Assembly: GCA_026398695.1 (NCBI GenBank)
Contig: JAPLSJ010000083.1
Location: 1 to 32,459 of the forward strand
Origin: Arenimonas sp.
GTDB lineage: Bacteria; Pseudomonadota; Gammaproteobacteria; Xanthomonadales; Xanthomonadaceae
DNA: 32,459 bases
Reading direction: 5' to 3'
Shown here in pieces: positions 5,239 to 13,372 of this stretch (position 1 is its first letter; each line of letters begins with the position of its first letter). The position numbers and the translations under genes are program-made. The notes beneath the pieces were generated by a model. It was not told the DNA's origin and did no database searches. It saw only the letters and a list, made by a program, of their open reading frames with translations.

Positions 5239-5910
5239 TCAGCGGGTGCCGAAGACCACGATGGTCTTGCCGCGCGCGTGCAGCAGGCCCTGTTCCTCGA
5301 GCTGCTTGAGCACGCGGCCGGCCATTTCGCGCGAACAGCCGACGATGCGCGCCAGCTCCTGGCGCGACACCCGGATCTGGGTGCCCTGCGGATGCGACAG
5401 CGCGTCGGGTTCCTGGCACAGGTCGGTGAGCGTGCGGATGATGCGGCCGCTCACGTCCATGAAGGCCAGTCGGCTGGCCTTGCGGCTGGTGTCGAGCAGG
5501 CGCTTGGACAGCTGCAGGCCAATGGCATACAGGATGCGCGGGCACTCGGCCGCCAGCGGGCCGGCGAACAGCTGGTGCAGGCGCTCGTAGTTGATCTCGG
5601 CCAGCTCGCAGGCGGTGCGCGTGCGCACCACCACGGCGCGCTGGTCGGCGGCGAAGAACAGGCCCATTTCGCCGATGAACTCGCCGGCGTTGACGTAGCC
5701 CAGCACCAGTTCGCGGCCATCGGACTCTTCGCTGACCACGCTCAGCGAGCCGCTGACCACGTAATAGAGCGAGGTGGCGGGCGCGCCGGGACGGAACACG
5801 TCGGTGCGCGTGGGGTAGCGGCGGCGGTGGCAGTGGTCGAGGAAGCGGTTCATGGCCGCGGCATCGGGCGCCAGCGGGCTGATGACGGCTTTGTGTGGCT
5901 GGACAGACAT
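5239..5910 (-). CDS. clp: Crp/Fnr-family global regulator Clp
   Basis: This 223-residue CRP-like transcription factor in Xanthomonads controls virulence, exopolysaccharide and extracellular enzyme genes, and is inactivated by cyclic di-GMP. The N-terminal cyclic-nucleotide fold has RRYPTRTDVFRPG (30-42), SLYYVVSGSL and GEFIGEMGLF (76-85). A long dimer helix at about 125-150 (RILYAIGLQLSKRLLDTSRKASRLAF) leads to the C-terminal winged helix-turn-helix VSRQELARIVGCSREMAGRV (181-200). The ATG at 5910 is chosen because AAAAGGAG lies seven bases upstream; an ATG at 5934 would put this site inside the gene. The position matching Xanthomonas Glu99, by memory alignment, is Ala92. Divergent from speD, as in Xanthomonas. 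Confidence 0.96.
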   Translation of the reverse strand: MSVQPHKAVISPLAPDAAAMNRFLDHCHRRRYPTRTDVFRPGAPATSLYYVVSGSLSVVSEESDGRELVLGYVNAGEFIGEMGLFFAADQRAVVVRTRTACELAEINYERLHQLFAGPLAAECPRILYAIGLQLSKRLLDTSRKASRLAFMDVSGRIIRTLTDLCQEPDALSHPQGTQIRVSRQELARIVGCSREMAGRVLKQLEEQGLLHARGKTIVVFGTR

Positions 5911-5967
5911 CGACGAACTCCTTTTCTCAGCCATTGCCGCCCCGGGGGGCGGCGGGTTGTTTCGTTC

Positions 5968-5996
5968 AGCTTAGGCGCCCCGGCCGCGCCGGGCAA
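5968..5996 (-). promoter_or_regulatory. Candidate clp promoter
   Basis: On the minus strand, TTGCCC (5991-5996) and TAAGCT (5968-5973) are separated by 17 bases, upstream of the clp start. The -35 fits the sigma-70 consensus fairly; the -10 is weak. A GCCGCC/GGCGGC hairpin (5936-5953) lies in the expected clp leader. Confidence 0.33.
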
Positions 5997-6036
5997 TGCC
6001 GGACGGGCCCGGTGGCGGCTTCCGTGACGGGGTCGG

Positions 6037-6065
6037 TTCCCCCCGGGGGCGGTTTGCCCGATAAT
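6037..6065 (+). promoter_or_regulatory. Candidate speD promoter
   Basis: A good -10 hexamer GATAAT (6060-6065) lies 43 bases before the speD start. The spacing-appropriate -35, TTCCCC (6037-6042), is weak. It shares the 198-bp divergent region with clp, where a Clp effect on speD would be possible, but no clear TGTGA-N6-TCACA site was seen. Confidence 0.35.
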
Positions 6066-6108
6066 GCCGGCCCCCGCTGCATCCCCCTTCCCTAGCAGGA
6101 ACGCCACC

Positions 6109-6903
6109 GTGGTCAAGCCGCTTCCTCGCCTGAGGCTCCAGGGTTTCAACAACCTGACGAAGGCCCTGAGCTTCAACATCTACGACGTCTGCTACGCGGT
6201 GTCGGAAGAACAGCGCCAGCGCTACATCGATTACATCGATGAGGAATACAACGCCGACCGCCTGACCCAGATCCTCACCGACGTGGCCGAAATCATCGGC
6301 GCCAACATCCTCAACGTGGCCCGCCAGGACTACGACCCGCAGGGTGCGTCGGTGACCATCCTGATTTCCGAAGAGCCCGTCATCGACAAGAAGGCGGCCG
6401 GCAAGGAGCTGATCTCCGATGCCGTGGTGGCGCACCTGGACAAGTCGCACATCACCGTGCACACCTATCCGGAAACCCACCCGCACAACGGCATCGCCAC
6501 CTTCCGCGCCGACATCGACGTGGCCACCTGCGGCGTCATCTCGCCGATGAAGGCGCTCAACTACCTGATCGAGAGCTTCGAGTCCGACATCGTGGTGATG
6601 GACTACCGCGTGCGCGGCTTCACCCGCGACGTGAAGGGCAAGAAGCACTACATCGACCACCGCATCAATTCGATCCAGGAATTCCTGTCCAAGCCCATCA
6701 AGCAGCGCTACGAAATGATGGACGTGAACATCTACCAGGAAAACCTGTTCCACACGAAGATGCACCTCAAGGAATTCGACCTCGACACGTACCTGTTCGA
6801 GGAGAAGGCCAAGAACCTCGGCTTCAAGGACCGCCAGCGCATCGAGATGCAGCTGCGCCGCGAAATCGAGGAACTCTACGGTGCCCGCAACCTGATTGAC
6901 TGA
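6109..6903 (+). CDS. speD: S-adenosylmethionine decarboxylase proenzyme
   Basis: SpeD makes decarboxylated SAM, the aminopropyl donor for spermidine. The 264-residue length matches the E. coli/Xanthomonas type. The proenzyme cuts itself before the serine of [13 protein letters not shown] (Ser113), which becomes the pyruvoyl cofactor. [13 protein letters not shown] and [11 protein letters not shown] are also conserved. The start is GTG at 6109 ([16 protein letters not shown]...), with AGCAGGA eight bases upstream; an ATG at 6064 lies inside the -10 region and would add residues not expected in the family. speE is not in the window. The riboswitch begins five bases after the stop, so the terminator before gdx also ends the speD transcript. 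Confidence 0.96.
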
Positions 6904-6908
6904 TCGCC

Positions 6909-6960
6909 CGCGCGGGACGGCCCGCGCGCCGTATGGCGGCGATGAACCACCGACGACGGT
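6909..6960 (+). ncRNA. Guanidine-II (mini-ykkC) riboswitch aptamer
   Basis: Two hairpins with the diagnostic ACGR tetraloops stand in tandem upstream of a guanidinium exporter gene. P1 has a perfect 8-bp stem (CGCGCGGG 6909-6916 with CCCGCGCG 6921-6928) around ACGG. P2 has a 4-bp stem (ACCG 6949-6952 with CGGU 6957-6960) around ACGA. A 20-base linker separates them. In this class the two loops kiss and bind guanidinium ions. The identification rests on the two loops, the tandem order and the downstream gene, which agree closely with the class; no covariance search was made. Confidence 0.88.
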
Positions 6961-6991
6961 CCGGCGCGCAAGCTCCGGGCCGTTGTTGTTT
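6957..6991 (+). terminator. Intrinsic terminator serving as riboswitch expression platform
   Basis: CGGTCCGG (6957-6964) pairs with CCGGGCCG (6975-6982), eight pairs including one U-G. Above it, after a C/U mismatch, GC pairs with GC around a GCAA tetraloop. The stem is followed directly by TTGTTGTTT (6983-6991). The first four bases of the stem are the 3' arm of aptamer hairpin P2, so P2 and the full terminator cannot form together. Guanidine binding would therefore be expected to favour read-through into gdx. The terminator structure is seen; the switching direction is inferred. Confidence 0.8.
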
Positions 6992-7018
6992 CCAGGCACC
7001 GCGAAAAGGAGCAGCGAC

Positions 7019-7339
7019 ATGGCATGGATCTACCTGGCAATTGCCGGCGTGTTCGAAATCGTCTGGGCCGTGGGCCTGAAGTACAGCGAGGGCTTCACGC
7101 GGCCCCTTGCCAGCGTGGTCACCGTGGCGGGCATGGTGGTCAGTTTCTGGTGCCTGGCCCTGGCGCTGAAGGAAATTCCGATCGGCACCGGCTATGCGGT
7201 GTGGGTGGGCATCGGCGCGGTGGGCACGGCCATCCTGGGCATTGCCCTGTTCGGCGAGTCGGCGGCCTGGCCGCGGCTGGCCTGCATCGCCCTGGTCCTG
7301 GCCGGCATCATCGGCCTGAAACTCACTTCGCCCACCTGA
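7019..7339 (+). CDS. gdx: Guanidinium exporter, SMR family (Gdx/SugE)
   Basis: A 106-residue four-helix inner-membrane protein of the small multidrug resistance family. It exports guanidinium in exchange for protons as an antiparallel dimer. The essential Glu13 is in helix 1 ([16 protein letters not shown]). That WAVGLKYS pattern is typical of the SugE/Gdx branch rather than EmrE-like drug pumps. Helices lie at about 2-20, 29-50, 56-78 and 83-102. Shine-Dalgarno AAAAGGAG is seven bases before the ATG. The guanidine-II riboswitch upstream supports guanidine as the natural substrate. The older name is sugE. It converges on coq7. Confidence 0.94.
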
Positions 7340-7375
7340 GGAGCGGTTTTGGCCACGTAAATCCGCGGCAGCCCT

Positions 7376-8020
7376 TCAGCCCCGGTATGCCAAGGCCTTC
7401 ATCACGCGCGAGCTCAGGGCCATCAGCCGCGGGATGGGCTGGGGCAGCAGGCGCGCGCCGGCTTCCAGGGCGTTGTCGGCGTGGCGGGCCTCGTCGGCCT
7501 TCATGGTGCGAAGGATGGCGCGGCTGCGCTCGTCGCCGGGCGGCAGGTGGGCCAGGTGTTCGTCCAGGTGGGCTTCCACCTGGCGCTCGGTCTCGACCAC
7601 GAAGCCCAGGTTCCAGCCGTCGCCGCGCAGGCCCGCGGCCAAGCCGATGGCGTAGCTGCCGGCATAGAACAGCGGGTTGAACACGCTCGGGCGGCTGTGC
7701 AGTTCGTCCAGCCGGTCGGCGCACCAGGCCAGGTGGTCGGTTTCCTCCTGGGCGGCGTGCGCGAGCTGGGCGCGCGTGGCGTCGTCGCGCGCCACGGCGG
7801 CCTGGCCGACGTACAGCGCCTGCGCGCAGACCTCGCCGGTGTGGTTGATGCGCATCAGCCCGGCGGCGTGCCGGCGGTCGGGTTCGTCCAGCTGCAGGTC
7901 GGGCGTGTCGCCCGCCGGGTTCGGGCGCTCGGCGCGGGCGCGGCCCAGGCTGGTGCCCAGGGCGTGCTGGGCTTCGATCAGGATCCGGTCCAGCGGGCTG
8001 AAGTGTCGGGTCAGGCTCAT
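7376..8020 (-). CDS. coq7: 3-demethoxyubiquinol 3-hydroxylase (Coq7 type)
   Basis: This 214-residue di-iron carboxylate enzyme performs the hydroxylation of demethoxyubiquinone, a late step in ubiquinone synthesis, at the membrane face. Iron ligands are visible: Glu63 in NHTGEVCAQ, Glu93 and His96 in QEETDHLAW, Glu145 in [11 protein letters not shown], and Glu177/His180 in ADEARHAD. The sequence [10 protein letters not shown] near 31-40 is shared with Xanthomonas Coq7. The ATG overlaps the stop of the upstream Fe-S protein by four bases (ATGA), so the two are translationally coupled. Many gammaproteobacteria use UbiF instead; coq7 is usual in this family. Confidence 0.95.
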
Positions 8021-13182: not shown

Positions 13183-13366
13183 ATATCCTCCACCATGCCG
13201 ATGCGGGCGAAACGACCTTGATCCCTGGGATCAAGTGGGTACCTGTGCGACTGCTTCAGGCTTTCCGCAACAGGGCGGACATGCACACCGCGATCACCGC
13301 AGGTTCCCGGGTCGTGTTTATGGGACAAGGCGAATGTTTTGCACGCTGTCGGACACGGCAGAGGAC
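13183..13366 (-). ncRNA. ssrS: 6S RNA
   Basis: 6S RNA mimics an open promoter and holds sigma-70 RNA polymerase in stationary phase. The gap between zapA and fau, the classical 6S location, contains a TATAAT on the minus strand. About seven bases later comes UCCUCUGCCGUG (13365-13354), which pairs over 12 positions with CAUGGUGGAGGA (13197-13186) to form the closing stem. Near the 3' side is a hairpin CUUGAUC/GAUCAAG (13217-13235), the counterpart of E. coli CUUGAACC/GGUUCAAG. Ends are approximate to a few bases; length about 184 nt fits the family. Confidence 0.88.
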
Positions 13367-13372
13367 AGGCGA

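Follow-up and report, generated by a model that had tools for sequence, protein, structure and literature searches.

How is the gene of a probable guanidinium exporter controlled when the RNA ahead of it seems to hold the hairpins of a ligand sensor and the transcription terminator of the preceding gene in one and the same stretch? The question is raised by speD and gdx in a contig of Arenimonas sp. (JAPLSJ010000083.1), whose 32,459 analysed nucleotides are called the window here. Our analysis makes it likely that the 115-nt spacer between the two genes harbours a riboswitch of the guanidine-II type whose expression platform is a transcription terminator (Table 1).

Table 1. Features of the speD-gdx region, in window coordinates
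Feature	Positions	Strand	Basis
speD, adenosylmethionine decarboxylase (E. coli type)	6064..6903	+	ORF; TIGR03331, 458.9 bits (cut-off 255.8)
P1 hairpin, 8 pairs (6909-6916/6921-6928), loop ACGG (6917-6920)	6909..6928	+	Sequence, folding
PL, linker hairpin between P1 and P2 (6928-6931/6937-6940)	6928..6940	+	Alignment of 26 sequences
P2 hairpin, 4 pairs (6949-6952/6957-6960), loop ACGA (6953-6956)	6949..6960	+	Sequence, folding, alignment
Terminator stem-loop, loop GCAA (6968-6971)	6957..6982	+	Sequence, folding, alignment
T-rich tail of the terminator, TTGTTGTTT	6983..6991	+	Sequence
AAGGAG, probable ribosome-binding site of gdx, lying clear of the hairpins	7006..7011	+	Sequence
gdx (sugE) of the small multidrug resistance family, probably exporting guanidinium	7019..7339	+	NF008512 (SugE), 136.3 bits (cut-off 126)

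Direct reading and folding recover the anatomy laid out in the original prediction: two hairpins with ACGR loops before gdx, a second hairpin whose 3' arm doubles as the base of a terminator, and a GCAA-capped terminator followed by a T-rich tail. P1 begins 5 nt past the speD stop codon. The 3' arm of P2 (CGGU) is common to P2 and to the terminator, in which 6957-6964 pair with 6975-6982 and, beyond a C.U mismatch (6965/6974), 6966-6967 pair with 6972-6973. This structure has the GC-rich stem and the T-run of an intrinsic terminator, with 10 pairs, 8 of them contiguous, and 7 T in 9 bases; the T-run is broken by a G in the window, and the tails of relatives are mostly T-rich, some with C or G. 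A simple terminator scan did not list the 6957-6982 hairpin, possibly because of its inner mismatch. The P1-P2 linker of 20 nt (6929-6948) exceeds the 13 nt mostly needed for the loops to meet, guanidine-II linkers being described as mostly 13 nt or more and long enough for this contact (PMC5486947). As to the gene downstream, the nearest solved chain to the gdx product is 6wk5 (E 3.9e-31), identical in sequence to 6wk8, which we take to be the guanidinium exporter Gdx-Clo; the best EmrE chain gave 5.5e-15.

Does the element belong to a known RNA family? The Rfam model of guanidine-II (mini-ykkC, RF01068) gives the window 18.4 bits at a cut-off of 32, with P1 alone aligned; in a search of the whole genome of origin it does not rise above chance level (E 0.28, the next match 0.51), and the cut-off was reached by none of the 13 relatives scanned. 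A model built from relatives, R1, does recognise the element in other genomes. It derives from 26 gdx-leader spacers with the window among them, and its score of 85.8 bits for the window is therefore partly a matter of construction. The lack of a covariance hit, named beforehand as a result that would speak against a riboswitch, is thus what the Rfam model returns and the opposite of what R1 returns. Since the Rfam cut-off is not reached, formal membership in guanidine-II is provisional. Among other matches in the window, the sRNA BjrC68 (27.1 bits, cut-off 39, mainly over the terminator) was set aside, and mir-9209 and further sub-threshold matches were taken for chance in GC-rich sequence. 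Elsewhere in the window, 13183-13367 on the reverse strand encode a 6S RNA (RF00013, 102.4 bits).

For comparison, the best 80 of 456 relatives in a Gdx scan were pooled with other loci to 134 and searched for speD and gdx. With duplicates set aside, speD directly precedes gdx in 28 distinct loci, 25 of which, from Arenimonas, Pseudoxanthomonas, Stenotrophomonas, Xanthomonas and Coralloluteibacterium, share the same spacer layout: P1, PL, P2 with the stem RCCG/CGGY, and a terminator starting with the P2 3' arm; one of these, L044, has a degenerate P1 that lacks a closing pair. In Silanimonas and a close MAG (L062-L064), gdx begins 2 or 7 nt past the speD stop codon and the element is absent. 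The 25 distinct spacers and L057, whose contig begins at P1, make up a 26-row alignment, anchored on the P2 pattern; apart from Silanimonas, no distinct speD-gdx spacer was dropped for lacking that pattern. Two of the loci collected call for separate remarks. L056 (JALHLO010000225.1) is labelled as a Ramlibacter MAG, yet its speD and gdx products are 99% and 89% identical to those of the window, and the contig is probably misbinned. In L099 (Arenimonas daejeonensis), gdx (2501-2816) occupies two reading frames that meet near residue 73, the result of a frameshift or an error in sequencing; no damage is apparent in the riboswitch-like element ahead of it.

Both loops read ACGR in all 26 rows, and the pair closing them is G-C in 26 (P2) and 25 (P1), the two-hairpin arrangement of guanidine-II that is also seen in the window. 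P1 also has two-sided changes, and among the wider relatives it occurs in compensatory forms such as GGTGGG/CCCACC and GGCAGG/CCTGCC. PL, with 83.2% of its cells paired, has two-sided changes in all five aligned pairs, and the four core pairs of P2 are present in every row, the outermost being A-U in 18 and G-C in 8. In the terminator, 96.5% of the cells are paired and two-sided changes occur at 4 of 11 pairs; its pairing, the lack of which in comparative sequences had been named as grounds for giving up the reading, is thus conserved. For P1, PL and P2 together, 83.6% of the cells are paired, with a covariation of 0.188 versus 0.081 in 500 shuffles, none of which came as high (slid controls at most 0.069); for P1, PL and the terminator the figures are 90.5%, 0.237 versus 0.115 (0 of 500) and at most 0.085. 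The number of further pair types was no better than in shuffles, 193 of 500 being as high with P2 and 119 of 500 with the terminator. P2 and the terminator, which exclude each other, are hence both maintained with compensatory change.

Could the spacer simply terminate speD, or act as a speD-gdx attenuator, with the ACGR hairpins as by-products of GC-rich palindromes that sense nothing? Such an account could draw on the terminator being the most stable part of the element, on the sub-cut-off score of RF01068 and the similarly sub-cut-off likeness to BjrC68. It does not explain, however, why both ACGR loops are invariant in the alignment where the loops of PL and the terminator vary, and two G[ACGR]C hairpins of at least 4 pairs arose in only 1 of 20,000 dinucleotide shuffles of 6904-7018. 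Within the window, scanned on both strands, such a pair of hairpins (two G[ACGR]C within 60 nt) is unique. A further point concerns the 5' arm of P2, which the core terminator does not use and which is nevertheless kept, covarying with the shared arm. At the outermost pair, the shared base, U in 18 rows and C in 8, invariably faces a G in the terminator; as G accepts either, the terminator alone would not demand that the outermost P2 pair match. On a tree of speD with 56 rows, in which only 6 of 50 inner branches are strongly supported, this pair changed between A-U and G-C at least four times.

A wider set of 97 distinct elements, drawn from 100 loci, a selection that left out duplicates and L195, L218-L221, L223, L226 and L227, bears on the same issue; it was, like the set used below for the platform, chosen by score or retrieval order rather than at random, and its counts are not independent events, as many elements are closely related. 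The P1 loop is ACGR in 87, ACGT in five, ACGC in four and GCGG in one, so that ACG plus any base accounts for 96 of 97. The P2 loop is ACGR in 80, or 79 by a stricter pattern, the difference being L184 with its inner P2 mismatch; of these 80, 53 have A-U as the outermost P2 pair, 26 have G-C and one has G.U. The other 17 (L167, L193, L194, L196-L209) keep the terminator with a non-ACGR P2 loop, a finding which the plain terminator can claim for itself. They all carry one genus code, g30, in the Stenotrophomonas group, and all have A.C as the outermost pair; as a group they show ACYYA-like P2 loops (e.g. ACCCA), a P1 loop that is relaxed in part and a long linker hairpin; five of the nine ACGT and ACGC loops of P1 belong to this group. 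The sensor may have been lost or changed there. A substitute antiterminator (linker CCGTGG with CCACGG near P2, noted by eye) was considered for the group and discarded, because it breaks in some members.

Damage is also seen in single elements. Besides L044, P1 is degenerate in L240, which has gdx alongside, as apparently does L184. In L234 (genome G386), no gdx was found after speD. That its terminator persists would suit a speD terminator pure and simple; that its P2 loop reads AAGA where gdx is gone counts against one. By eye, the reverse-strand gene that follows speD in L234 resembles the gene after gdx in the window. Weighing these points, we consider a plain terminator unlikely, and return to the guanidine-II-type riboswitch as the favoured reading.

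How widespread is the element? At E <= 0.01, R1 matches 206 of 395 Lysobacteraceae genomes, 159 of them at E <= 1e-5 and 47 more weakly. Among 20 genomes from the lower end of this range, 21 matches (E <= 1e-3) comprise 8 at speD and/or gdx and 13 elsewhere, and as one of these 13 reaches 47.2 bits (E 2.7e-6), the figure of 159 genomes is too high by at least one. The strong matches in 369 genomes drawn from the class are four, all in Lysobacteraceae; five weak ones outside the family (30-35 bits), with neither speD nor gdx alongside, were discarded. Both searches used stricter filters, which lose weak matches. As in guanidine-II, a guanidine-related gene follows: gdx lies downstream in all 33 loci L135-L167, with speD upstream in each; these are the 30 best family matches (the window's own included) and three from the class search. 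In the Arenimonas-group genus, gdx is present in 14 of 27 genomes, and the seven with an R1 match are those in which it adjoins speD. Two other genomes of this group (G150 and G154; loci L049 and L050) have gdx without speD nearby and a classical P1/P2 close to its start codon, so that both platforms occur in one genus. The distribution suggests a guanidine-II-type branch in Xanthomonas-, Stenotrophomonas-, Pseudoxanthomonas- and Arenimonas-like genomes that lies below the Rfam cut-off, in which case guanidine regulons would be undercounted in them.

By which platform would the element act? A review and three other papers call guanidine-II translational (PMC12186494, PMC9094411, PMC7544219, PMC10907184), the first three of the four describing an ON switch, which lends some plausibility to control of gdx translation, with the hairpin before the T-run merely incidental. 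Proximity of P2 to the ribosome site, a usual if not strictly defining trait of that class, is however missing here, and it is a terminator that follows P2: from the end of P2 it is 45 nt to AAGGAG and 58 nt to the ATG, which makes ordinary hiding of the ribosome site by P2 unlikely, and the minimum-energy fold contains no pairing between the two. Across all 26 spacers, the distance from the first base of P2 to the start codon is 63-100 nt. Moreover, the terminator, with its compensatory changes, overlaps P2 in 53 of 53 speD-type loci, as opposed to 2 of 79 Rfam-type guanidine-II loci, counting those with recognisable hairpin pairs (55 and 84 loci were examined, and the speD type includes the R1 training sequences). 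The rule behind these counts is our own, namely a terminator over the loop or 3' side of P2, applied equally to both sets; start-codon distances in this comparison are confounded by in-frame upstream starts. Both overlapping Rfam-type terminators are weak, with 6 of 7 pairs. We therefore regard translational control as very improbable. The comparative evidence backs the earlier call for transcriptional control in the ON direction, the response to guanidine being a prediction from sequence, and agrees that a terminator platform is the less common form in the loci tested. A guanidine-II switch on a terminator, or beside speD, was not found in the literature searched, which consists partly of excerpts; the primary guanidine-II papers may mention one.

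Energetics sharpen the question of how a short hairpin could prevail over the terminator. As foreseen, the four pairs of P2 lose to it: in the window P2 amounts to -2.9 kcal/mol and the terminator tail to -19.4 kcal/mol, the means over 80 elements being -6.0 and -21.4 kcal/mol. In the minimum-energy fold the terminator stem even extends outward, taking in the P2 loop and part of the T-run, and P2 is consequently missing from that fold. With the terminator so much more stable, the decision must be kinetic. In folding of the growing transcript, which takes no account of bases inside the polymerase or of kissing loops, P1 is formed throughout; P2 has a probability of 0.86 and 0.73 with the transcript end at 6960-6963, falls to 0.34-0.48 at 6966-6975 owing to other pairings, stands at 0.88 at 6978, and is lost at 6981, when the 3' arm of the terminator emerges.

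These results can be cast into a mechanism. Polymerase leaving speD would make P1, then PL, then P2. With guanidinium present, the two ACGR loops would kiss, binding one ion each, as in the solved guanidine-II hairpins, and thereby lock the arm shared with the terminator; the latter could then not close at its base beside the T-run, and gdx would be transcribed. The ions between the kissing loops would have to delay invasion by the terminator only until polymerase has passed the T-run. Without guanidinium, the terminator would invade P2 once its own 3' arm has emerged (about 6979-6982), and transcription would stop after speD. One hairpin would so both end the speD mRNA and gate gdx, and the ON direction suits an exporter gene. 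With P2 formed, a residual hairpin of 6 pairs (-10.4 kcal/mol in the window) can still form, separated from the T-run by GCCG; some termination may therefore persist, although this hairpin presumably no longer terminates well. The scheme presupposes transcription from speD into gdx. A scan of 5900-7400 for sigma-70-like promoters returned none, at low power (shuffles, too, gave only 0.3), and this, together with the closeness of P1 to speD and the nearly touching genes of Silanimonas, makes such transcription the simplest reading. Should the mechanism hold, it would show that the loops can kiss quickly enough to contend with a terminator, and the element would be a natural RNA allowing a clean single-round transcription assay of loop kissing.

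Is guanidine itself the ligand? ACGR loops and their G-C closing pair build the guanidine-II pocket, and the ligand there lies stacked on the G of that pair (PMC5486947); by analogy the solved structures would explain why loop and closing pair are kept in the speD-gdx element. In crystals, methylguanidine, aminoguanidine and agmatine are bound by guanidine-II hairpins as well (PMC5486947). The switch could hence be real and have a different guanidino compound (agmatine or methylguanidine, for example) as its natural ligand, which would suit the polyamine neighbourhood provided by speD, which is upstream throughout the 33 loci mentioned. The downstream gene, though, is a Gdx-type SugE, and its leader has the loops and closing pair of the guanidine pocket, so that we give this idea very little credence and continue to regard guanidine as the probable ligand.

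Taken as a whole, we somewhat favour an interpretation in which the element represents a widespread subfamily of guanidine-II in Lysobacteraceae, hidden below the Rfam cut-off, whose P2 has come to lie within the speD terminator such that guanidinium allows read-through into gdx. In this subfamily the covarying PL would be part of the fold, and the system would have been dismantled in apparent serial losses: one Stenotrophomonas group has a remodelled P2 loop, one genome lacks gdx and has a decayed P2 loop, and Silanimonas is without the whole element.

How does the speD-gdx element compare with the known riboswitches? With guanidine-II it has in common the two G-C-closed ACGR hairpins, a linker of more than 13 nt, the position before gdx/sugE and the predicted ON direction. 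Unlike the classical members it possesses a linker hairpin, a P2 fused to a terminator and a sub-cut-off Rfam score. The P2 stem is RCCG/CGGY in speD-gdx elements and mostly GGGG/CCCC in the classical loci compared; next to the loop, the window has CCG/CGG where GGG/CCC is usual for guanidine-II. Guanidine-IV (mepA, GGAM-1) is likewise a guanidine ON switch before sugE, in which a loop interaction with the terminator region controls termination, but the published GGAM-1 consensus (PMC7736828) is devoid of conserved ACG trimers, of which the speD-gdx element has two. Guanidine-IV is missing from the 11 Rfam matches (E <= 10) listed for 6850-7060, which come from a library that may not include it. 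The other candidate motifs in PMC7736828 are tabled under Actinobacteria, Alpha- and Betaproteobacteria and two single species. Guanidine-I (ykkC) turns transcription ON by sequestering part of the terminator stem (PMC5486947); its aptamer is a different one, and it does not appear among the Rfam matches listed for the same region. In the HMP-PP (thiS) riboswitch, aptamer and terminator share strands as they do here (PMC7266159), while ligand and aptamer differ. The speD-gdx element would thus combine the sensor of guanidine-II with the control logic of guanidine-I and, in effect, of guanidine-IV.
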